Source: a virus. From it: a stretch of DNA of 49,487 nt. The stretch spans positions 1 to 49,487 of the IMG/VR virus record IMGVR_UViG_3300035183_000812; one strand, written 5' to 3'. The translations under genes and the position numbers were made by a program. Shown piece by piece: positions 6,012 to 26,207 of the stretch (its first letter is position 1; each line of letters starts with the position of its first letter). The notes beneath the pieces were generated by a model that had not been told where the DNA came from, ran no database searches, and saw nothing but the letters and a program-made list of their open reading frames with translations.

Positions 6012-7127
6012 TCAGCCGCTCCATCGCCGTCCGCGGCGTCCCTGTCCCTGGCCTTTGGCGCCTTGCTGCGCCTGTTGCTGCTCCTGTTGTGGTGCCTGTT
6101 GTTGATTTGCTTGTGGCTGCTTTGCTTCCGCCTGCTGTGGCTTTGCTTCTTGTTGTTGAGCCGGCTTTACTTCAGCCTGCTGTTCTTGATGCTGTTCTTT
6201 CTTCTTGGATTCGGCTGCCCGTCTTTCCTTGGTCCATTCGTCGATTGCGCGATTTATCGCGGCCAGCCTTTCCTCCGGAGATGGCGCTTTCGCCCGCTCC
6301 CTCTCTCGCGCCGCCCGCTCCCTCTCTCGCGCATCCAGCTGCGCCAGCACCTGAATGGTCCTCTTCAAATCCTCCTCGTAATTCGGATCCCTATTCGGTT
6401 TCCCTTGTGGCTTCTCTTGTGGCTTCTCCTGTGTCTGCGGCTGAGGCTTCGCGCCAGCCAGCATTCTCTCTTGAATGGCGTGGTATGCGTCGAGAACCTT
6501 TTGTAGGCTGCTATGTTGCTTGGCTGCCTCAAGCATGTTTCGCATGTGCTGCTGCCACCGAATGCGCTGAACAAGTGGCATGCTGGCAATCATGCGGGCG
6601 GCGTGCGGTGCGGCGAGCGCGTACAGGCCACGCCCGGCCCTGGCCGCTGCCATGCCGAGCCACGAGATGCCTCGGACGGCGGCTCTGCCTAGCTTGAATG
6701 CCCCCCTGATGCTTTCGCCGAGGAGAGCCGCGTCCCAAGCAGTCTCCAGTGGGTTTTGCGGCTGCATGCCAGGCGGCAGCCTCATAATGGCCTTGTAGGC
6801 ACGCATGACGGGGTTCCGCCTTTTCGTGCGCGCCCCGCCTTGTGCGGCTGGCTCGGATGGCCCCAGCCGCCGAGCCCGCTGTTGCGCGGCTGGCTGCTGC
6901 TGCTGCTGCTGTTGCTGCGCCTGCTGCTGTTGTTGCCTCTGTACAGGCTGCTGCTGCGCCTGCTGCGTCGGCTGCTGCTGCTGCGGCCTCTGCTGCTGTT
7001 GCTGCTGTTGTTGCTGCCGCTGAACGTGCTGCTCTTGCTGCCGCTTTTTGTGTTCTTCCCGAAGCGTCTGCTCCAGCTCCTGCTGGGCGCGCTTCTTGGC
7101 GGAATCAAAAGCTTTGCGGCGCTTCAT
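6012..7127 (-). CDS. Glutamine-rich low-complexity protein, 371 aa
   Basis: Residues 1-90 are basic helix followed by long glutamine tracts broken by Pro, Ala, Arg and Val. Residues about 90-200 contain a more ordered Ala/Arg/Leu-rich helical segment. The C-terminal third again alternates charged helices (EKPQEKPQGKP repeats, RERERAARERER) with Gln/Ala tracts. It ends 51 bp before the start of the 1480-residue gene and shares its disordered, basic style, so the two may act together, for example as DNA-associated internal capsid proteins. No enzyme motif is seen and the family is not recognised. Confidence 0.7.
   Translation of the reverse strand: MKRRKAFDSAKKRAQQELEQTLREEHKKRQQEQHVQRQQQQQQQQQRPQQQQPTQQAQQQPVQRQQQQQAQQQQQQQQPAAQQRARRLGPSEPAAQGGARTKRRNPVMRAYKAIMRLPPGMQPQNPLETAWDAALLGESIRGAFKLGRAAVRGISWLGMAAARAGRGLYALAAPHAARMIASMPLVQRIRWQQHMRNMLEAAKQHSSLQKVLDAYHAIQERMLAGAKPQPQTQEKPQEKPQGKPNRDPNYEEDLKRTIQVLAQLDARERERAARERERAKAPSPEERLAAINRAIDEWTKERRAAESKKKEQHQEQQAEVKPAQQQEAKPQQAEAKQPQANQQQAPQQEQQQAQQGAKGQGQGRRGRRWSG
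6291..6332. repeat. Two perfect tandem 21-bp units
   Basis: Units at 6291-6311 and 6312-6332 are identical. On the minus strand they encode the repeated heptad RERERAA/RERERAK in the Gln-rich protein. Being a multiple of three, the duplication preserves the frame. Confidence 0.9.
6890..7021. repeat. CTG/TTG triplet-rich tract (polyglutamine coding on minus strand)
   Basis: Imperfect runs of ctg, ttg and cgc triplets encode glutamine blocks of up to nine residues on the minus strand. Such tracts are unusual in tailed phage genes and are expected to vary in length by slippage. Confidence 0.85.
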
Positions 7128-8251: not shown

Positions 8252-8318
8252 GAGATACCTAAGACTAGCTTACTAGAGAATACTACGTATTCTCTAAGTA
8301 AGCTAGTCTAGGTATCTC
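8252..8318. repeat. Near-perfect 31-bp inverted repeat (AT-rich hairpin/cruciform)
   Basis: Left arm 8253-8283 and right arm 8287-8317 pair along their whole length except for one extra A and one missing T, with the loop TAC. The arms contain agactagcttac and gagaatac. It is markedly AT-rich against a GC-rich background and lies 15 bp upstream of the leftward arm's first start codon, so it could be an operator, a leader hairpin or part of an origin. Confidence 0.85.
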
Positions 8319-8530
8319 CAAAACACGGTTGATTCCAGGCACTTTGGGCAAAATAGGCAAAGCCAAGGGCCGGCATGCCCAGAAAGGCCTAAAAACGGCC
8401 TTTTAAGACCTGCTTGAAATCGAAGGCTATCACCATACCCCTCGGCAAAAAAAGTGGCGGAAAAGGCCAAAAGTCGGCCTTTAAAGGGCATCCGCCAGAC
8501 AAGGGATGAAACCTGGGGAAAGCCAGGGCT

Positions 8531-8702
8531 AAATCCGGGGCCCCATAGACCAAAAGCAGGGGGCCCCATATGCCCAAATCCGGGGCCCCACAGGGAAGAC
8601 CAGGAAAAGACCCCCGCACCCCAAATCCGGGGCCCCAAGGCAGTCGGCGAGCGTGAACGTACCCCGCAGCGAAGAGTAACCTGCAATATTCTCAGGGGCC
8701 CC
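8531..8702. repeat. Iteron-like array of GGGGCCCC palindromes
   Basis: GGGGCCCC occurs at 8537, 8560, 8582, 8629 and 8695. Three copies sit in the identical 15-mer aaatccggggcccca (8531-8545, 8576-8590, 8623-8637), spaced 45 and 47 bp apart. The regular spacing of the larger unit looks like binding sites for a dimeric protein. Confidence 0.8.
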
Positions 8703-8803
8703 AGGGGTGGGGGGGGTACAGGGTATAGATGAGGGGTGGGGGTCGCCACCAGCCAACGGTGGCTGGTGAGCGTTCCGTCCCCCACACGCCAAAGGAGACG
8801 AGT

Positions 8804-9163
8804 GTGAGCGAACTCGACGAACTTCGACAGAGGGTCCGAGACCTCGAAGCCCAACTGGCTTCCAGGCAGCGCGGGCGGCCGGCACCGAAACGGTCGCTGC
8901 CGCCGGAGTCGTTTCTCGAATGGCTCAGGTCCGTGGGGCCGGGCACCCATTGGGTGCCCGACCACGTCCTCGGCCAGGGCCTGACTCAACAGGCCAGGTG
9001 GTCGAGGTTGTGCCGTTACTGCGCCCTGTTGCTGGACGCCGTTCATCTCGGCGCCCAGTGGCTGGAGTGGGATCCGGTGATACCGGATCCCACCGACGAG
9101 CTGCAGAAGGCAGCAGAAGCGCAGCCTGAGCCGAAAGACACGGCACTCATCGTGACAGAGTAA
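8804..9163 (+). CDS. Hypothetical protein, 119 aa, first gene of the rightward arm
   Basis: The start chosen is GTG at 8804, 6 bp after a GGAG at 8794-8797; an upstream in-frame ATG at 8729 lacks a ribosome binding site and overlaps a hairpin. The protein starts VSELDELRQRVRDLEAQLAS, a short coiled coil, followed by a basic linker and a helical domain with two cysteines (LCRYCALLLDAVHLGAQWLE). Its coding DNA includes two long perfect inverted repeats (8940-8960 and 9067-9093, the latter a 12-bp stem). The function is unknown; the first-in-arm position suggests early expression. Confidence 0.7.
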   Translation: MSELDELRQRVRDLEAQLASRQRGRPAPKRSLPPESFLEWLRSVGPGTHWVPDHVLGQGLTQQARWSRLCRYCALLLDAVHLGAQWLEWDPVIPDPTDELQKAAEAQPEPKDTALIVTE

Positions 9164-9240
9164 CACGCTAACCGACGCGAGCCCGCCCCCGCCCCACCAG
9201 GGGCGGGTTGGCGGGCGGAAACTTCAAGAAAGGAGAGCCC

Positions 9241-9381
9241 GTGAAAGTCTACATCTACGACTCAACTGGGAGGTCGCACCAGATTGACTTGTCCGTCTTC
9301 CCTGATTTCACGAGGAAGGCGATCCTGGAAACGCTCTACGAGATTGCAGGTCCCCTAGGCCTGGTGGTGCTGAAGTTCTAG
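9241..9381 (+). CDS. Small hypothetical protein, 46 aa
   Basis: A GTG start at 9241 follows a strong AAAGGAG at 9230-9236. The product begins MKVYIYDSTGRSHQIDLSVF and ends GPLGLVVLKF, looking like one helix between short strands. It is preceded by a GC-rich hairpin (about 9182-9218). Its last codons form a perfect 10-bp hairpin spanning the stop codon (9361-9370 with 9381-9390). It is flanked on both sides by the same hairpin plus AAAGGAG modules used by its neighbours, which supports it as a real gene. The function is unknown. Confidence 0.65.
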   Translation: MKVYIYDSTGRSHQIDLSVFPDFTRKAILETLYEIAGPLGLVVLKF

Positions 9382-9411
9382 CACCACCAGAAAGACCGGC
9401 TGACTGACCGA

Positions 9412-9445
9412 GCCCCGCCATCCTGATGGGTGGCGGGGCGCTTTT
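9412..9445 (+). terminator. Intrinsic terminator after the 46-aa gene
   Basis: A 9-bp perfect stem (gccccgcca 9412-9420 / tggcggggc 9431-9439) is followed by gcttttc. Confidence 0.7.
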
Positions 9446-9474
9446 CGTGAAAGGAGGAGCGCGGCAAGCAACAC

Positions 9475-9512
9475 GCCCCGCCCACTGGGCAGGTGTGGCG
9501 GGGCACTTTTTT
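9475..9512 (+). terminator. Second tandem terminator
   Basis: An 8-bp GC stem (9475-9482 / 9497-9504) is followed by actttttt. It is the same arm sequence as the preceding terminator. A third hairpin follows at 9513-9546 with 13 of 15 bp Watson-Crick paired. Between the first two lies an AAAGGAGG with no following gene, as if a gene had been lost from this module. Confidence 0.7.
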
Positions 9513-9574
9513 CCCGCCCGGTCCGTGGATTCACGGGCCGGACGGGACAAAAGTCCAGAAAGGAGGTGAGATGT

Positions 9575-10009
9575 ATGAGTGGCGACTCGTTCGCTTGCTG
9601 GTCCGAGTTCGGGAAGGCCAGCCAGCGGGATCTCTGGTTAGATCCCGTGGACTTAAACGTGACGGTCACATGGCCCGACCAGCCGATGCCCATTGAGGCA
9701 ATCCGGCTCGGCCGCGCGCTTAATCCAGACGCGGCCGAGTTCGTTCGCCGGGCCTTCGACCAGCTAACGGACTGGGACCACCCGCTTCCGCGGGCTGACC
9801 AGTCCGGCCAGCTCTGGCTGGTCGAGCACTGCACTTCTTGCGGAGTGCACCGGTTCCCGCCGTTCGGGAACCGGATTCCAGTATTCCATGTATGCTGGCA
9901 CGGCGGGCTGACTGTCCCGCTGTGCGTGACGCGCGGCCCACTGGCCGCGTCGCTCATTGAGCACGCGGTCAGGAACTGGGCCACCGCCGGCAACCTCGCC
10001 GGCGGGTAA
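9575..10009 (+). CDS. Tandem paralogue A (144 aa), unknown function
   Basis: The start is ATG at 9575, 8 bp after GGAGG at 9562-9566. The C-terminal half carries the shared family pattern: a helix (EFVRRAFDQLTD), a Cys-containing strand (LVEHCTSCG), then FHVCWHGGLTVPLC and a closing helix (AASLIEHAVRNWA). The same order appears in the next three genes, so this is the first of four divergent tandem duplicates. Four or more cysteines could bind metal. Its coding DNA contains at least five perfect inverted repeats of 7-10 bp. No known family is recognised; position suggests an early, possibly host-directed, protein. Confidence 0.75.
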   Translation: MSGDSFACWSEFGKASQRDLWLDPVDLNVTVTWPDQPMPIEAIRLGRALNPDAAEFVRRAFDQLTDWDHPLPRADQSGQLWLVEHCTSCGVHRFPPFGNRIPVFHVCWHGGLTVPLCVTRGPLAASLIEHAVRNWATAGNLAGG

Positions 10010-10027
10010 CGACGAGAAACAGTCCGA

Positions 10028-10061
10028 GCCCCGGTCGCCACGGTGGCGACCGGGGCATTTT
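10028..10061 (+). terminator. Intrinsic terminator after paralogue A
   Basis: A perfect 13-bp stem (gccccggtcgcca / tggcgaccggggc, loop cgg) is followed by atttttct. The next gene's ribosome binding site follows 14 bp later. Confidence 0.9.
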
Positions 10062-10084
10062 TCTCTTTCACGAAAGGAGGTCAG

Positions 10085-10564
10085 ATGTATCCAGACCCGT
10101 ACCGTTTCTCATTCGAGGCCGAGGTCGATGCGCTTCGGCGCAACGACCTGTGGTTGCATCCGGAGCACCTTACGCTCCGGATGGCCCGGCCGTGGCAGCG
10201 GCCGGACCAGGGGTTCACGATTTACGTTGGCCGCGCTGTCTCTGACGCCGCGGCCGACCACATCGTCCGGGCGTTCGACGAAATGATGGAGGCCAACGAC
10301 GGATTCTATCCGGACTACCTGCCTCCAGAGGGCGGGCCCGGCTGTGCGGAGCCGGTGGAGCTTGTCGAGCTTTGCACGTGCGGCGCGCGCGTGCATGCCG
10401 GCAACTTCTATGGCGGGTACATTCTGCCCGCCTTCCGTATCTGCCCGGCCGGCGGACTTGCAGTCCCGCTCTGCCTTGCAGACGGGATCTATGCCGCACG
10501 GCTCGTCCGCCGCGCACTTGAGCACGTGGCGGACATGCGGGCCACGCCCGACGCGGCCCAGTAA
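10085..10564 (+). CDS. Tandem paralogue B (159 aa), unknown function
   Basis: ATG at 10085 follows AAAGGAGG at 10074-10081. It shares with A the helix HIVRAFDEMMEAN, the Cys strand VELCTCGARVHAG, the core FRICPAGGLAVPLC and the helix AARLVRRALEHVADM. The N-terminal 60 residues differ from A. Coding inverted repeats include a 10-bp perfect stem at 10157-10183. It is separated from its neighbours by terminators on both sides, so each gene looks monocistronic or attenuated. The function is unknown. Confidence 0.78.
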   Translation: MYPDPYRFSFEAEVDALRRNDLWLHPEHLTLRMARPWQRPDQGFTIYVGRAVSDAAADHIVRAFDEMMEANDGFYPDYLPPEGGPGCAEPVELVELCTCGARVHAGNFYGGYILPAFRICPAGGLAVPLCLADGIYAARLVRRALEHVADMRATPDAAQ

Positions 10565-10579
10565 GTAACAGCAACCAGA

Positions 10580-10612
10580 GCCCAGACGCCACGGTGGCGT
10601 CTGGGCGTTTTT
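10580..10612 (+). terminator. Intrinsic terminator after paralogue B
   Basis: A perfect 12-bp stem (gcccagacgcca / tggcgtctgggc, loop cgg) is followed by gtttttct. The loop and the inner six stem bases match the terminator after paralogue A, showing that the terminator was duplicated with the gene. Confidence 0.9.
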
Positions 10613-10638
10613 CTCTTCTCTTCCCGAAAGGAGGTCCG

Positions 10639-11082
10639 ATGGAACAGCGCAGCGAGTTGTTCCTACGCGGCGACGACTGGCATGTAACAGTCGTCGGCGA
10701 GGGCTTCCGGCCCGACTGGGCCGGCGCCCACCTCGGGACCACATTCGGTCCCGAGTCTACCGAGATCTTGAGGATCGCGGTCGACTTCTGTCGACCGCCG
10801 TACTACGACGCAGGTCCGGTGCCGCCGCCGGACCTGCGGCCTGAAGCTCCCAAGTACTGCGTCTGGCTTTGCCAGGCGCACTATACGCACCGCGAGGTGC
10901 TTTACAGCACGGACCGGATTCCACCGTACCGTTCGTGCGGGTGCCAGCTCGCGGTTCCCGTGTGCATCTGCCACGGGACAGAGTTGGCAGACTACGTACG
11001 AGACCTGCTCGACCACGCCGGTCGGGCAGGCGGGCTGGGGTACTTCGGTGTCCTGCGGGACACCGAAGCTGACACCGGTTAA
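10639..11082 (+). CDS. Tandem paralogue C (147 aa), unknown function
   Basis: ATG at 10639 follows AAAGGAGG at 10626-10633. The family pattern is present as the helix EILRIAVDF, the Cys strand VWLCQAHYTHREVL, the core YRSCGCQLAVPVC and the helix ADYVRDLLDHAGRAGGL. Its DNA has perfect inverted repeats of 7-11 bp about every 30-60 bases (for example 10732-10755, 10777-10798, 10811-10836 and 11043-11068). The function is unknown. Confidence 0.77.
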   Translation: MEQRSELFLRGDDWHVTVVGEGFRPDWAGAHLGTTFGPESTEILRIAVDFCRPPYYDAGPVPPPDLRPEAPKYCVWLCQAHYTHREVLYSTDRIPPYRSCGCQLAVPVCICHGTELADYVRDLLDHAGRAGGLGYFGVLRDTEADTG

Positions 11083-11091
11083 GTCTCCTGC

Positions 11092-11128
11092 GGGGGGACG
11101 GGAACGGATTCCCGTCCCCCCAATTTTT
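11092..11128 (+). terminator. Intrinsic terminator after paralogue C
   Basis: A perfect 12-bp stem (ggggggacggga / tcccgtcccccc) is followed by aatttttta. Confidence 0.9.
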
Positions 11129-11130
11129 TA

Positions 11131-11211
11131 TCGACGCGCGACAGCGACTCGACTCTGTCGCGCGTCGAGTTTTTTTCGGCGCGTCGCCCGGCCATTTTTT
11201 TCGACGCGCCG
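11131..11211. terminator. Two further nested hairpins built from CGACGCGC arms
   Basis: A 14-bp perfect stem (11131-11144 / 11155-11168) is followed by agttttttt. A 10-bp stem (cggcgcgtcg 11177-11186 / cgacgcgccg 11202-11211) has a run of seven T inside its loop. All four arms share the core cgacgcgc, so alternative pairings are possible. The rest of the 336-bp gap to 11418 holds another 8-bp hairpin (11267-11287) and no gene. Confidence 0.8.
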
Positions 11212-11418
11212 CCCACCGAACACTACAGCCGCGCCGGCTGCTTGACCAGTGTAGTTATTAGACAGGCTGGCGCGACTGCCGCGCCAGGCCGCCTGCCGAG
11301 ACGTTGGCGGCCAGATCGCTTGCGCGGCGCCACGATCACAACACTTGCCGGCGCGCCATCTCGCCCCGTGGCAAGCCGGCATGCTTCCAGTTCTGGGGCG
11401 CAAACGGAGGCCGTCCTG

Positions 11419-11895
11419 ATGTACGAAAAGCATTACCGCCTGTATCTCGAAGTTCTGCCGCGGTGGCGCATCGCGGCCATCTCGGAGGACTCGTTCGAGC
11501 AGGAACCCTACGAGTCCATTCCGCTCGGGCTTGCGCCGAGCGAGGCCGCAGTCGCGCTGTTGCGGCGGGCCGTGGCCTACGCGGAGCGGCATGTGGACCC
11601 GCCCGCGCACGGCATGAAGCCAGGTCCATTCGAGGTGGCCGTGTGCCAGTCGCACGTGAGCCACATCCGGTTCTTGCAGGCCGGCGATCGCGTGCAAGCC
11701 TTCGCGCCGTGCGGCAAGTACGGTCTGTACATCCCGGTGATTGTCGCGAGCAGCCTGGAAACGGCCTCGTTCGTGCAGGATTGCATCAACCTGGCCGCGC
11801 GGCTGGGCGGCCTGGAAGACTGGGGCATCCGGGCGCCGGACGTGGAGGACAGCGCCGAGATCAGCTACGAGGACATTGACCTGGACAGCCCGTAG
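11419..11895 (+). CDS. Tandem paralogue D (158 aa), unknown function
   Basis: ATG at 11419 follows CGGAGG with 8-bp spacing. It keeps the family layout: the helix AVALLRRAVAYAE, the Cys strand VAVCQSHVSHIRFL, the core FAPCGKYGLYIPVIV and the helix SFVQDCINLAARLGGL, ending in an acidic tail. It has lost the last core cysteine (Ile in place of Cys). Its DNA has fewer internal hairpins than A-C. A terminator follows. The function is unknown. Confidence 0.77.
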   Translation: MYEKHYRLYLEVLPRWRIAAISEDSFEQEPYESIPLGLAPSEAAVALLRRAVAYAERHVDPPAHGMKPGPFEVAVCQSHVSHIRFLQAGDRVQAFAPCGKYGLYIPVIVASSLETASFVQDCINLAARLGGLEDWGIRAPDVEDSAEISYEDIDLDSP

Positions 11896-11936
11896 CTGGT
11901 ATGAAGTGTCCATAGCGGCGAGAGCGATCACCTAGT

Positions 11937-11982
11937 GCCCAGGCCGGGGTTTCAGCCTCCTTTACCCGGCCTGGGCCTTCTT
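11937..11982 (+). terminator. Intrinsic terminator after paralogue D
   Basis: A perfect 12-bp stem (gcccaggccggg 11937-11948 / cccggcctgggc 11965-11976) is followed by cttctttt. Confidence 0.85.
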
Positions 11983-12011
11983 TTCAAGGGAGGCGTCTGG
12001 AGGCACATCCG

Positions 12012-12659
12012 ATGAACGAGGAGAAACATTCGTTCATGCTCGGCATCATTATGGATGCCGAGGACGTGCAGTTCACGCCCGGAGCGCCGATGATCGTCGG
12101 GCGCTGTGATTCCGGGCAGTGGTCTGTACTGGGGGACTGCGTCCCCCTGCGGTTCAAGATTCCCGAGGACGGCATGGCGGCTGCCGCGGTGGCCGCGTCG
12201 TGCGGGCTGGTGCTCGAAACGACTGGCGGTATTCTCGCCAGGCATCGTGACGAGCTGACAATGGTGGCGGCTCGCCGCGTGGCCGTGCCCTTCGTCCGGG
12301 ACATTCTGCCGTACCTGGACGAGAAGAGCCGGCGGGACATCGATAGGTCGCTCAAGATCTCCGGGATTCCGGAGGGGATTGAGCGGACCGAGCCGCTGAG
12401 CCTGTTCTTCGACGAGAACTGGCGCATGGGCGAGCAGCAGATGGGACTTCTGATGATCCCGGTCCTGCAGGAGAGCGTCGGAATGTACCACCTCGGCGTG
12501 GGTCCCGTGGATGAGAACGGGTACCTGTGCGGCGAGTGGGAGCGCATGATTCCGGCTGCTCCGACCGATCTTGAGTCTCACTGGAAGGTTTGCGCGACCG
12601 GCGTTCCCTGCTGGGAGTGCGACAGCGAAGGGAGGTTCTATGTTACTCGAATCGCTTAA
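12012..12659 (+). CDS. Hypothetical protein, 215 aa, upstream of the AAA+ ATPase
   Basis: ATG at 12012 follows a GGAGG at 11998-12002. The protein mixes beta-rich N-terminal segments (MIVGRCDSGQWSVLGDCVPL) with a central helix (VAARRVAVPFVRDILPYLD). It has a cysteine pair near the end (GVPCWECDSEG). Its 3' end overlaps the start of the AAA+ ATPase gene by 20 bp, so it is translated with that operon. It lacks the four-paralogue core. The function is unknown; as the fixed upstream partner it may belong to the ATPase/VWA/RT system. Confidence 0.75.
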   Translation: MNEEKHSFMLGIIMDAEDVQFTPGAPMIVGRCDSGQWSVLGDCVPLRFKIPEDGMAAAAVAASCGLVLETTGGILARHRDELTMVAARRVAVPFVRDILPYLDEKSRRDIDRSLKISGIPEGIERTEPLSLFFDENWRMGEQQMGLLMIPVLQESVGMYHLGVGPVDENGYLCGEWERMIPAAPTDLESHWKVCATGVPCWECDSEGRFYVTRIA

Positions 12660-13713
12660 CTCGCAGTTCCTGCAACGGCAGGACTGCATCGAGGCACTGG
12701 AGGCTGGGCTGATCAGCGGGCACAATGTGCTGCTCATCGGTCCGGCCGGGTCCGCGAAGTCGGCCCTTTGCCGCGCTGCAGCGGCGACGGTCGGGGCCAA
12801 GTACTTCGAGATCGCGCTGGCGCCGACGACGACGCCCGAGGAAGTGTTCGGGCCGCCGGACATCGAGGCGCTGACGCAGCGTGGCGAGTGGCGGCGCAAG
12901 ATCGACCACTACGCGCCCAGCGCGGAGATTGCGTTCTTCGATGAGTTCTTCCGTGGCTCGCCCGCGATTCGGGACACGCTTCTCTCCATGCTGGGCGAGG
13001 AGCGGCTGTGCTACATCGACGGGCTGCCGGTGCGCGTGCCGCTGCTGTACGGCATCGGTGCCACGAACTTCCTCGACGACTCGCCGGAGCAGGCGGCGAT
13101 CCTCGATCGCTGGTGCTTGCGAGTCGAGGTGAACTACGTGTCTCCCAACCAGTGGGAGTCGCTGCTGTTCGGCCAGAACGGCGGCTGTCCGGTGGGCAAG
13201 TGCTCGGTCCCTGAGGTGCTCGCGCTCCGGGACAAGGCCAAGGCTATGCCCTTCGAGGCGGATGCCAAGCAGGCCGTGCTCGACATCCTGAACAAGCTGA
13301 TGACGGAGCACGGGGTGCAGGTGTCTGACCGGCGCAAGAAGTGGTCGGTCGCGGTGGCCAGGGCGATGGCCGCATCGTCTGGGCACGACTCAGTGATGCT
13401 GCGGGACCTGGCGATTCTGCGGCATGTGTACTGGACGGCGCCGGCGCAGCGGGCCGTGGTGAACGATGTCGTGATGGGCGTCGCTTGCCCTGGCCGGCTC
13501 GCGTGCCAGAAGCTGATGGCGGAGATCTACGAGGCGTATGCCGAGTTCTCCGGCCAGCGCTCGATCGGTTCGGCGGTTGCGGCTCTGGCCAAGTTCAAGG
13601 AAATCGCCGAGCAGGTCAACAAGTACGACAAGGAGGACGTGGCCGAGGCACGCGAGGCCTTGAAGGCGGCGGCTGACGAGTGTCGTAAGTTTGTCACTGG
13701 AGGCATTGCCTAG
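12640..13713 (+). CDS. MoxR/RavA-like AAA+ ATPase, 357 aa
   Basis: The start is ATG at 12640 after GGGAGG at 12630-12635. Residues 34-41 are a Walker A motif (GPAGSAKS), residues 97-102 a Walker B (IAFFDE) and residues 141-143 a sensor-1 ATN. The segment VFGPPDIEAL at 69-78 is characteristic of the RavA branch of MoxR ATPases, which act as hexameric chaperone-like remodellers. Such ATPases normally pair with a VWA protein, and one follows 13 bp downstream. In this phage the pair is extended by an unknown gene and a reverse transcriptase. The target of remodelling is unknown. Confidence 0.92.
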   Translation: MLLESLNSQFLQRQDCIEALEAGLISGHNVLLIGPAGSAKSALCRAAAATVGAKYFEIALAPTTTPEEVFGPPDIEALTQRGEWRRKIDHYAPSAEIAFFDEFFRGSPAIRDTLLSMLGEERLCYIDGLPVRVPLLYGIGATNFLDDSPEQAAILDRWCLRVEVNYVSPNQWESLLFGQNGGCPVGKCSVPEVLALRDKAKAMPFEADAKQAVLDILNKLMTEHGVQVSDRRKKWSVAVARAMAASSGHDSVMLRDLAILRHVYWTAPAQRAVVNDVVMGVACPGRLACQKLMAEIYEAYAEFSGQRSIGSAVAALAKFKEIAEQVNKYDKEDVAEAREALKAAADECRKFVTGGIA

Positions 13714-13726
13714 AACAGGAGCAAGA

Positions 13727-15070
13727 ATGGATGAACTCAGGAAAGCACTCGAAGCCGCCGAAGAACACGTTCAAGCTGAAGAAGCCCCGACTTCGTACGG
13801 GGGCGTCGCTGAAGATGCCATCGACTCGACGGTCTACGATGTCGATGTATGGACGCGGCGCCAAGGCGAAGTTCTGGCAGGACTTTGCCAAGCTTCGGAA
13901 AAAGAAACTCGGTCACTAGCCGACGCCGGCGACCTGATCACGGACGTGTGCGTGGACGCCTTCAACGCGGCGTTCGCGCCATCGCTTGAGCGCACGGGCA
14001 AGCCGCCGGAGCGCCGGGCCAAGTTCTTCGACACGCTGGAAGCCAGCGGCGACCTGGCTGCCATCCGGCAGAACACGGCCCTCAATCTGGACCTGGCGCG
14101 CATTGCCGCGGAGGGGTTGCTGCACGGGTACTGCGAGTCGCTTCGCGTGGAGCAGGACCCGCTTTCGCAGCACCAGCCTCCGGCGCTCCTCTCGGCGATG
14201 GCCGCCAAGGCGGCGACGGACGCGGCCAAGGAGGTGCGCGCGACCCTCAGGTCGGCGGCTGATCTGGCCGAGTGCGCCATGTCGCGCGGGGACCCGCAGG
14301 CGCTGGCGCGCTCGCTACGGTCGGCGCTTCGCAGCTCGCGCCTGCGCGGGATACTGGAGCGTGTGGGCCGGTACATCAGCCTAGCCAGGTGCCTGCAATC
14401 GTCCAAGGTCACGACCACTGGCTCGCTGGAGACCACGGGCATCACGTTGAGTGGTGACCTGAGCGCGGTCGTGCCCTCGGAGCTGGCCATGCTTGGCGGG
14501 GCGGTTCCGGTGCTGCGGAACTTGCACATCGCGCGCCTGCTCCAGCGGCAGGCGATGAGCTGGCGCAAGATCCGGCGCACGGAAGCCAAGCGCGGGCCGA
14601 TCGTCGTCATGCTGGACGAGTCAGGCTCAATGAAGGACGTGCTCGCCGACGCCAAGGCTATCGCAGCCGCCCTCGCGTGGGTGGCGCGGAAGCAGAAGCG
14701 CGAGGTCGTGCTGATGTCGTACTCGTCCCAGCTCATGCTCGCGGACTTGAGTTCGGAGGCGACGTTCCTCCAGTGGTTGGAGATGTTCCTGGACGGTGGA
14801 ACGATCGCCAGTCTGGCGCTGGCCGAGAGCATGAAGTACGAGATCCGCGGCGCCGATCACGTGATCATCACGGACGGCGACTGGGATGAAGAGCCGGACG
14901 ATCAGCGATTGCTGGACTACCGCGCCTGGTGCCGCAAGCACGGGGTTACCGTGTACGGGATCAGCGTTGGCTGCGAGACACCGCAGCTGAAGGCGATCGC
15001 GGACCAGATTTGGAATTACGCTGAGCTTGGACTGGATTCTGCCTGCGTGCAGTCCGTGCTCAGTATCTAG
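13727..15070 (+). CDS. ViaA/CoxE-like VWA-domain protein, 447 aa
   Basis: The start is ATG at 13727 after ACAGGAG. Residues 1-270 are helical. A VWA domain occupies about 290-447, with the metal-ion-dependent adhesion site DESGS at 297-301, a DGGT at 356-359 and ITDGD at 381-385. This architecture (long helical N-terminus, C-terminal VWA) is that of ViaA, partner of the MoxR-type ATPase RavA, and the preceding gene is that partner. The VWA domain probably docks a client for the ATPase. No cobaltochelatase-specific features are evident. Confidence 0.88.
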   Translation: MDELRKALEAAEEHVQAEEAPTSYGGVAEDAIDSTVYDVDVWTRRQGEVLAGLCQASEKETRSLADAGDLITDVCVDAFNAAFAPSLERTGKPPERRAKFFDTLEASGDLAAIRQNTALNLDLARIAAEGLLHGYCESLRVEQDPLSQHQPPALLSAMAAKAATDAAKEVRATLRSAADLAECAMSRGDPQALARSLRSALRSSRLRGILERVGRYISLARCLQSSKVTTTGSLETTGITLSGDLSAVVPSELAMLGGAVPVLRNLHIARLLQRQAMSWRKIRRTEAKRGPIVVMLDESGSMKDVLADAKAIAAALAWVARKQKREVVLMSYSSQLMLADLSSEATFLQWLEMFLDGGTIASLALAESMKYEIRGADHVIITDGDWDEEPDDQRLLDYRAWCRKHGVTVYGISVGCETPQLKAIADQIWNYAELGLDSACVQSVLSI

Positions 15071-15882: not shown

Positions 15883-16731
15883 ATGAAGGGCGAGTTCCAG
15901 CGCATGCATCTGCGTAAGCGGAGCGGCGGGTTGCGCGAGGTGTACCGCCTACGCCGCGACGTTGCCGCCTACTACCGGTCGCTGGTACCGGAACTATCGG
16001 CGCTGGCGCTGACGTTGGACGTGTACCGGGTGGCGCACGGGTTCATGCCTGGGCGCTCCCCGGTCACGAACGCCCTCGCGCACAAGGGGCCGCACGAGGC
16101 GACGCTGTGCATGGACTTGAAGGACTTCTTCGACTCGCTCACGTACACTACGCCGCGCGCTCCGAACTGGTATCACGAGACCAACCTCAAAGAGTCGCTC
16201 ATGGAACGGCTTCTCACGCCGCTGTATCCGGAGTGCTGGCAGTTATTGCAGAGCAGGCCTGCCGCGCAGGGATTTCCGACCTCGCCAGCCGTGGCGAATA
16301 TCCTGATGTACAGGTTCGATGCCGCGCTGCATGAGATCGCGCATCGGCGCGGGTGCGTGTACACGCGCTACGCGGACGACATTGCCATCTCCGGTCCGCT
16401 GATCGTGGTGAATGGCATGGAACGGATGGTGCGCGAGTGCTGCAAGATGTACTCGCTGCAGGTGGCTGAGGAAAAGACGCGCCTGTACCTCTCCTGTCGC
16501 GGGGCCAGGATCATCACTGGTGTCGCGGTGTACGATGACAGGATCGACGTGCCACGCCACATCAAGCGCAAGCTGCGCGCCGCGCGTCACCAGAACCACA
16601 GCCGCGTGGCCGCTGGGCTGGAAGAGTGGTGCAAGCTCAAGACGCCGAACATCGGGAAATGGGTACTGCGTGGCATGGACGCGGGCCTTGATCCCGAAGC
16701 TCTCATTCAGGTCTCCTCGCTATCCCGCTAG
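15883..16731 (+). CDS. Retron-like reverse transcriptase, 282 aa
   Basis: ATG at 15883 follows GGAG at 15872-15875. Motifs run in reverse-transcriptase order: NALAH at 63-67 (the NAxxH of retron RTs), motif A CMDLKDFFDS with Asp78, motif B QGFPTSPAVAN at 129-139, motif C YADD at 163-166, motif D EEKTRL, and ITGVAV at 211-216, equivalent to the retron VTG element. All catalytic aspartates are present, so the enzyme should be active. Motif B is QGxPTSP rather than the form seen in diversity-generating retroelements, and no template/variable repeat pair was found. The length is slightly short for a retron RT. An abortive-infection or other unclassified RT remains possible. Confidence 0.9.
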   Translation: MKGEFQRMHLRKRSGGLREVYRLRRDVAAYYRSLVPELSALALTLDVYRVAHGFMPGRSPVTNALAHKGPHEATLCMDLKDFFDSLTYTTPRAPNWYHETNLKESLMERLLTPLYPECWQLLQSRPAAQGFPTSPAVANILMYRFDAALHEIAHRRGCVYTRYADDIAISGPLIVVNGMERMVRECCKMYSLQVAEEKTRLYLSCRGARIITGVAVYDDRIDVPRHIKRKLRAARHQNHSRVAAGLEEWCKLKTPNIGKWVLRGMDAGLDPEALIQVSSLSR

Positions 16732-22907: not shown

Positions 22908-22927
22908 AAGGCCAAAAGTTGGCCTTT
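22908..22927. repeat. Hairpin shared with 8463-8482
   Basis: Nineteen of 20 bases match the sequence at 8463-8482 (aaggccaaaagtyggccttt). Flanking bases are also similar (gcngaa before, gggcat after). The single difference (t for c) extends the stem here to 8 bp. Confidence 0.8.
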
Positions 22928-23085
22928 GCGGGCATGCTGACCGATTGCCGATAGCCCTATTGCCGGCCTATGCCCTAAAGCTTCGACTCCGCCGGCCGTA
23001 TAGTTAGAACCATAACAGAGTATCAATGTTCCTGGTTGGTATTCTCTATTCTTAATAGTAGTAGGACCCCTCCTACTTCAGGACT

Positions 23086-23159
23086 GGGTTTAGAAAAACC
23101 CTTTGAGGCGATGGGCTCCCTACACTAGCCCTGAGCCGAAAAAGGGTTTTTCTAAACCC
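23086..23159. repeat. Perfect 19-bp inverted repeat
   Basis: Left arm 23086-23104 (gggtttagaaaaaccctt and one more t) pairs exactly with 23141-23159. The 36-nt loop carries its own gggct/agccc hairpin (23113-23131). The short repeat tagtagta/agtagtag flanks it on both sides. Confidence 0.9.
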
Positions 23160-23223
23160 CCAGTAGTAGAACTTATTACCCAACTTAACAGGGAAACTAA
23201 CTCCAAAAACCTATGCGGAAGGT

Positions 23224-23265
23224 GGTGCTTAAAAAGTAGGCAGCGTTGCCCAACGTTTAAGCACC
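23224..23265. repeat. Two-stem inverted repeat ahead of the 127-aa gene
   Basis: The outer stem ggtgcttaaa (23224-23233) pairs with tttaagcacc (23256-23265). The inner stem cgttg/caacg lies at 23244-23255. It sits 30 bp upstream of the next gene's start, so it could control its translation. Confidence 0.8.
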
Positions 23266-23294
23266 TCGTTTCCGACGCCAGTTGGAGCTCAACA

Positions 23295-25166: not shown

Positions 25167-25369
25167 GCGCACTGGTTCTGTTCGCCGCCGGCGTGTGCAT
25201 GGCCTTCAACGTCGCACAGATGGTCTGGCTCACGCACCTGACCGAGCAGATCGAGGCATACAAGCGCGGTCTGCAGGCCATGCACGTGGAGCAGGGGGTC
25301 GTGTTGCAGAGCATGGAGAAGTCGGCGGCACGAATCGAGGACGCGGCAAATGCCCTCGAAGGTAGATGA
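25115..25369 (+). CDS. Small membrane protein with coiled coil, 84 aa
   Basis: A membrane segment at about 17-38 (LSALVLFAAGVCMAFNVAQMV) is followed by a periplasmic-type helix (LTEQIEAYKRGLQAMHVEQG). The topology resembles an inner-membrane spanin or holin accessory. The gene lies partly inside the 3' end of the preceding gene, an arrangement also common for spanin pairs. The assignment is tentative. Confidence 0.7.
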   Translation: MFSSKPSYPYARRFDSLSALVLFAAGVCMAFNVAQMVWLTHLTEQIEAYKRGLQAMHVEQGVVLQSMEKSAARIEDAANALEGR

Positions 25370-26207
25370 GGTGATACGACTCAGAAACATCGACACCTCT
25401 CCGCGCCCAGCCTTCAGGTATACCGGCTCCAAGCGCGGTGTTAGCCGCATCGTGCTCAAGCTTCTGAAGGACCTGGACGTGGACACGTTCTGCGAGCCAT
25501 ATGCCGGGTCCGCGGCGGTCACGTTCGTGTGCAAGGCCGAGTACGGCGACAAGATCAAGCGATGGTGCATCAACGACCTGGACAAGGACCTGATCGCCGT
25601 CTACCACGCCATCAGGGAACGGGGAGAGGAGCTGGCCTGGGAATGCATGCGCACTCCCTACTCGCACGAGGCGCTGATGGTCGCCAGCAGCATCTACAAC
25701 CGGTACTTCCAGGCAGACGATAAGCCTCGGCGCTTCCCGTGGGCCTTCATGGTCAGCAAGAACTTCTCGTTCGCGTCGTCTGCCTCGCTGTCTCGGCCAG
25801 GGCAAGAGGCGAGCTTCAGGCCAGACCTGGAGCACATGCGCTTCTCGGCGAGCGTCAAGCGCGTGTCCGCCTTGCTCCAGGATGTTGACATCACGAGCAT
25901 GGATGCGGTGGAGTGCATCAAGAAGTACGACTCTCCACGCACCATGTTCTTCCTAGATCCACCGTACGTTCTCGATACCAGAATCTCGCAAGAGCTGTAC
26001 TTGGTGGAAGCTAGCATCAAGGATCACGTGAGGCTTCTGGAAACATGCCTTGCCGCACAGGGGAAGATGGTTATCACTGGTTACCGGTGTCCGGAATACG
26101 ACAGGCTGATCGGGCACTGGAAGACAATCGAGCGCCGAGTGCGCTCTGGTGGCAGTGGCTACAGCTTTACAAAGACCAGGACGGAATGCGTATGGCTGCG
26201 CACCTGA
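25350..26207 (+). CDS. Dam-type DNA adenine-N6 methyltransferase (D12 class), 285 aa
   Basis: The motifs are FRYTGSKRG at 22-30 (the AdoMet/FxGxK element), CEPYAGSAAV at 48-57 (motif I) and the catalytic DPPY at 203-206. A central target-recognition region separates them. No restriction endonuclease partner is adjacent, so it probably modifies the phage's own DNA against host restriction or marks it for replication timing. The 5' end overlaps the previous gene by 20 bp. Confidence 0.9.
   Translation: MPSKVDEVIRLRNIDTSPRPAFRYTGSKRGVSRIVLKLLKDLDVDTFCEPYAGSAAVTFVCKAEYGDKIKRWCINDLDKDLIAVYHAIRERGEELAWECMRTPYSHEALMVASSIYNRYFQADDKPRRFPWAFMVSKNFSFASSASLSRPGQEASFRPDLEHMRFSASVKRVSALLQDVDITSMDAVECIKKYDSPRTMFFLDPPYVLDTRISQELYLVEASIKDHVRLLETCLAAQGKMVITGYRCPEYDRLIGHWKTIERRVRSGGSGYSFTKTRTECVWLRT

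Follow-up and report, generated by a model that had tools for sequence, protein, structure and literature searches.

Why should the coding DNA of a phage be packed with perfect inverted repeats, and do they reflect selection or mutation? The question is raised by the IMG/VR virus contig IMGVR_UViG_3300035183_000812, a sequence of 49,487 bases from an uncultured phage, the whole of which is the window analyzed here. The contig carries genes for a terminase large subunit, a major head protein and a lambda-D-like decoration protein, along with genes for a YqaJ exonuclease, a DNA adenine methylase and a ParB-like protein; the portal gene gives a weak Mu-type match. Given the presence of terminase, portal, head, decoration and these other genes, the source virus is, as judged from gene content, a tailed dsDNA phage. 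Its genes run leftward up to ~8.24 kb and rightward from 8.80 kb, and the hairpin block consists of the first rightward genes beyond the divergent intergenic stretch between them.

Density and extent of the hairpins

The hairpin excess is a real and strong feature of this genome. Counting non-overlapping perfect stems of at least 7 bp with loops of 3-15, we found 28 in 8747-11290, the interval that the original prediction had described as stem-dense, compared with 3.8 expected from the rate in the rest of the window (1.49/kb; Poisson p ~1e-15). Stems occur within as well as between genes, 17 of them lying entirely inside coding sequence. At a threshold of 9 bp, the interval contains 18 stems and the other 47 kb only eight. 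All seven hairpins that had been named as examples are present (9067-9093, 9361-9390, 9707-9739, 9850-9874, 10157-10183, 10777-10798 and 11043-11068), with stems of 12, 11, 10, 10, 10, 9 and 11 bp, respectively, the second having been given as 10 bp. The proposed spacing of one hairpin every 30-80 bases conveys the density but not the unevenness of the block, where gaps range from 0 to 153 nt.

Nearly all stems are 7-14 bp long, those inside genes measuring 7-12 bp and those between genes up to 14 bp, the length of the longest perfect stem in the interval; the sole longer stem, at 9505-9554, is imperfect and spans 23 positions. The stem sequences differ from one another and have no common motif, which rules out N4-type hairpin promoters. 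Because a Poisson scan returned 8285-12139 as the top-scoring interval, the boundary of the block at its terminators is not sharp. Over the contig as a whole, the excess of hairpins and folding is limited to about 8.7-12.2 kb.

Organization of the block and its upstream region

All features of the block lie on the + strand. Its cistrons have AAAGGAG-type RBSs, most of them with a hairpin shortly upstream, and several of these hairpins bear a T-run. A 9-bp hairpin detected by the stem scan (8747-8768) lies 5' of the first RBS and is followed by g8804 (8804-9163, 119 aa), which contains stems at 8940-8960 (9 bp) and 9067-9093 (12 bp) and has a fold z of -3.4 to -4.7. Next comes a small ORF of 46 aa (9241-9381) that has no clear internal excess and carries the 11-bp hairpin 9361-9390 across its stop codon. 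An intercistronic terminator-like hairpin with a T-run (9412-9439, called by the terminator scan) and a second hairpin of this kind (9475-9504, absent from that scan) separate it from three members of a paralog family: g9572 (9572-10009, 145 aa, fold z -6 to -7), g10085 (10085-10564, 159 aa, fold z -5.6 to -6) and g10639 (10639-11082, 147 aa, fold z -8 to -9). Between the first two lies a 13-bp terminator-like hairpin (10028-10056), found by both the stem and terminator scans ~15-20 nt 5' of the next RBS, and between the second and third a homologous one of 12 bp (10580-10606) that differs by two compensatory pair changes. Two strong hairpins of 13 and 14 bp, each followed by a T-run, occupy 11092-11168, and the first of them was called by the terminator scan. 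The view that the whole gene run is hairpin-packed thus holds for g8804, g9572, g10085 and g10639, and not for the small ORF. Of the flanking genes, which had been described as free of the excess, the fourth paralog g11419 (11419-11895) indeed has none (fold z ~0) and serves as an internal negative control; the next gene, g12012 (12012-12659), has a weaker excess, mostly at its 5' end, with three stems compared with 0.93 expected and a fold z of about -5.

The divergent intergenic region contains a near-perfect, AT-rich inverted repeat of ~32 pairs with one-base bulges (8252-8319, assigned to neither strand), which falls just outside the interval first proposed and is possibly an element separate from the hairpin block. 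Being AT-rich within a GC-rich phage, it may serve as an att site, a terminator, an origin or an element for telomere resolution. Farther to the right, at 8528-8706, at least four iteron-like copies of TCCGGGGCCCCA recur ~45-66 nt apart (likewise assigned to neither strand), and their arrangement suggests an origin- or operator-like function.

Synonymous codon choice and folding energy

As controls, we permuted synonymous codons within each gene while keeping the protein fixed (1000 shuffles per gene). For stems of at least 7 bp, g9572 has five compared with 0.64 in the shuffles and g10639 has seven compared with 0.97, numbers that none of the 1000 shuffles reached. For g8804, p = 0.003 was obtained for stems of at least 9 bp, and for g10085, with three perfect stems of at least 7 bp, p = 0.05; most remaining genes have stem counts near the shuffle expectation. 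The comparison with codon-shuffled controls, which had been put forward as the check on the stem count, therefore upheld the excess.

Over long stretches, the folding energy of the coding RNA is also far below that of codon-preserving shuffles, with z of -4.7 for g8804, -6.2 for g9572, -6.0 for g10085 and -8.3 for g10639 (four of five genes), compared with a mean of -1.0 (sd 1.5) across other genes. The value is 0.0 for g11419 and -5.3 for g12012, and it fades over the genes after g12012 (-3.4, -2.4, -1.7 and -1.9). Given that the palindrome capacity of the proteins is ordinary (z 0.5, 1.6, -1.7 and 1.0), the hairpins are built by synonymous codon choice, and the proteins are undistorted. These results agree with the original prediction that the coding DNA was either selected or mutated into hairpins. 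Elsewhere in the window, the sole comparable z (-5.3) belongs to a poly-glutamine-rich protein gene at 6012-7127 on the - strand, with runs of up to 9 Q, and may be explained by its glutamine-codon runs. A second, smaller folding peak at 22921-23281 (dinucleotide z ~-6, near 23041), close to the gap that precedes the 23103 gene, is a possible structured RNA.

By the same shuffle test, the genes of the ssRNA phages MS2 and Qbeta gave z of -4 to -9 and those of the ssDNA phages phiX174 and M13 gave +0.2 to -3.7. The block genes thus equal ssRNA-phage genes in folding excess and mostly exceed ssDNA-phage genes, and folding of RNA-phage grade is unusual for a DNA phage. A folded ssDNA stage, one of the causes first suggested, is left unsupported by the weak structure of most phiX174 and M13 genes. 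The block resembles the structured coding RNA of MS2 and Qbeta in the size of its excess over synonymous shuffles and in its distributed structure. However, these phages, like the RNA viruses with genome-scale ordered RNA structure, have RNA genomes, whereas the present phage is a dsDNA phage in which the structure does not extend throughout the genome. The stems differ too: perfect stems of at least 9 bp number 7.0 per kb here, compared with 0.28 in MS2 and 0.71 in Qbeta, making long perfect stems 10-25 times sparser in the RNA phages, and the ratio of perfect to imperfect stems is 33:11 here, compared with 19:15 in MS2 and 26:17 in Qbeta. To our knowledge, such a hairpin-tiled coding block has not been described for any dsDNA phage, and a literature search of open-licence papers returned no report of such hairpin-packed genes in one.

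Stem anatomy and paralog comparison

Interior stem mismatches on the coding strand are G.T in eight cases and A.C in two (one-sided p 0.055), the direction expected for RNA. Outer closing mismatches favor A.C (10:5) and inner ones G.T (10:5), so that these leanings cancel. Beside the 18 perfect stems of at least 9 bp, there are 10 one-mismatch stems with at least 9 pairs, compared with ~0.8 expected, and their mismatches are mainly G.T. Sense minus antisense stability relative to shuffles was -1.15, +0.07, -1.33 and -2.77 for the block genes and ~-1.1 for controls; the sense strand is not clearly the more stable one, and the test is not decisive. The loops of the block hairpins show no A-richness and no GNRA or UNCG tetraloops. 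In the arms, codon position 2 faces position 2 in 22 of 39 cases, the same as in shuffles (53%), stem ends are not associated with the exhaustion of synonymous extension (11:11), and an Rfam search gave sub-threshold hits only.

The paralogs g10085, g10639 and g11419 are 25-33% identical to g9572, and all but g11419 are hairpin-rich. The midpoints of hairpins coincide between paralogs no more often than expected by chance (p 0.07-0.8), and stem arms show no avoidance of conserved residues (0.97 compared with 0.84 when rotated, p 0.18); both arms are coding, and the protein is preserved, conserved residues included. Three homologous hairpin pairs, two coding and one intercistronic, all between paralogs within this phage, keep their pairing through compensatory changes. 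Between 9707-9739 and 10226-10258, C-G is replaced by G-C and another C-G by T.G; between 9830-9849 and 10373-10395, T-A is replaced by G-C; and between the intercistronic hairpins 10028-10056 and 10580-10606, T-A is replaced by A-T and G-C by A-T. Non-shared positions together with three compensated pairs would fit selection for general structure and not for fixed elements; the same pattern would also fit a mutational process with turnover. An AlphaFold model of a paralog (pLDDT 75) has two b-b-b-a units, and a search for structural matches to it gave nothing; neither the collections searched nor structure comparison revealed a family, fold or homologue for the block proteins.

Proposed selection on the transcript and other possible origins

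The reading that we favor, tentatively and at slightly less than even confidence, is that the block is under selection, via synonymous codons, for strong local folding of its transcript. The first rightward transcription unit (about 8.75-11.17 kb) would have been selected for local RNA secondary structure, with its cistrons folded into short hairpins and terminator-like hairpins placed between them, just before the next RBS. The block would then be a single transcription unit and the sense RNA the selected molecule, and the benefit may be an early message that is long-lived or shielded from endonucleases, Rho or RNA-targeting defences. Since hairpin positions are not conserved between paralogs, such protection would operate without specific conserved elements. 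The following observations speak for transcript selection: the fold z values of the four genes lie in the MS2/Qbeta range, far from the mean elsewhere; protein palindrome capacity is ordinary; interior mismatches favor G.T and three homologous hairpin pairs are compensated; and structure drops to z 0 in g11419, just past the hairpin/T-run pair at 11092-11168. Against it are the weak separation of sense from antisense, loops that are not RNA-like, stems more perfect than those of ssRNA phages, positions not shared between paralogs, and a Poisson-scan boundary that is not sharp at the terminators.

The more specific proposal, that a dsDNA phage evolved hairpin-tiled early mRNAs of RNA-phage grade as a general shield against nucleases or RNA-targeting defence, is one we regard as doubtful. 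If the hairpins are selected, DNA phages can put the protein-coding sequence to use as structured RNA, probably in the earliest transcripts of an infection, with a bearing on mRNA decay and RNA-targeting immunity. RNase III processing, also suggested at the outset, is unlikely. RNase III substrates have stems of about two helical turns, and the block, with nearly all its stems at 7-14 bp, falls short of this length and, apart from the imperfect stem at 9505-9554, lacks the stems of ~20 bp or more between cistrons that mark an RNase III-processed polycistron.

It is possible, though on balance unlikely, that the hairpins have a mutational origin, in which short-range template switching during replication repeatedly perfects imperfect inverted repeats and purifying selection keeps only the protein-sparing events; the hairpins would then need no function, and the block would document, in a compact natural setting, template switching within protein genes, and would help to show how perfect hairpins arise. 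Strikingly perfect stems with few mismatches fit this origin, as do positions that differ between paralogs, as turnover would produce. According to one proposal, template switching both generates RNA hairpins and keeps them intact (PMC8794818). Such hairpins resemble those described here in their perfect stems and compensatory changes; they are known from RNA genes, however, whereas we describe a tiled block of coding hairpins without an ancestral series. Template switching has also been invoked for the coding palindromes of Nematomorpha (hairworm) mitochondrial genes, which show no excess of imperfect repeats, their perfection being the case made for repeat conversion (PMC6649704). Like those genes, the block has many perfect and fewer imperfect inverted repeats in protein genes, with both arms coding and the protein preserved. 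Nematomorpha stems, however, are at least 15 bp long (mean 43, up to 142) and some positions are common between species (PMC6649704), whereas stems here are 7-12 bp in genes and at most 14 bp between them, are confined to one block of a dsDNA phage, include an excess of one-mismatch stems, mainly G.T, and share no positions between paralogs beyond chance. That one-mismatch excess counts against template switching, as do the lack of an amino-acid footprint, the failure of stem arms to avoid conserved residues, and the escape of g11419 in mid-domain. A mutational process must also account for a domain that takes up just ~2.5-4 kb of the genome.

Less likely still is a role at the DNA level, in which the region beside the divergent repeat-bearing DNA becomes single-stranded or strongly supercoiled, with hairpins or cruciforms shielding it or being used by proteins. 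The block does adjoin the 32-pair palindrome and the GGGGCCCC repeats of the divergent region, its antisense fold excess is almost as strong as the sense one, and its loop composition is not RNA-like. However, the excess extends rightward only and is interrupted by g11419, genes of ssDNA phages mostly lack such an excess, the nearby origin is putative, and the stems, all different in sequence, are not the binding site of one protein. Chance or composition, by which GC-rich codons would yield many inverted repeats in a region of 65% GC, can be set aside as refuted, given that neither shuffling of synonymous codons nor shuffling of codon order in these genes reaches the observed counts, that the AAA and vWA genes of equal GC and GC3 have no excess, and that the densest 2.4 kb holds 27 stems, compared with at most 11 in ~310 kb of other phage DNA with GC up to 67.5%.

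Search for relatives and neighboring genes

No relatives turned up in the collections searched, which covered viral contigs, genome contigs, phages and plasmids. Viral contigs were queried with AAA, g10639, terL, RT, the paralog alignment, vWA, capsid and g10085, and genome contigs with AAA and g10639; phages and plasmids were searched by tblastn with six concatenated proteins, and seven terminase- or RT-related viral records by profile. The sole matches were distant relatives of the terminase and the RT.

Downstream of the block, 12643-15070 encodes a MoxR-type AAA ATPase (Pfam bpMoxR) and, after it, a VWA/CoxE-like protein whose match is weak. At 15883-16731, next after g15106, lies the gene for a retron-type reverse transcriptase, matched best in PADLOC by RT_III-A (E 6e-40); the only viral relative found for it has 30% identity. 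A D12-class adenine DNA methyltransferase is encoded at 25350-26207.
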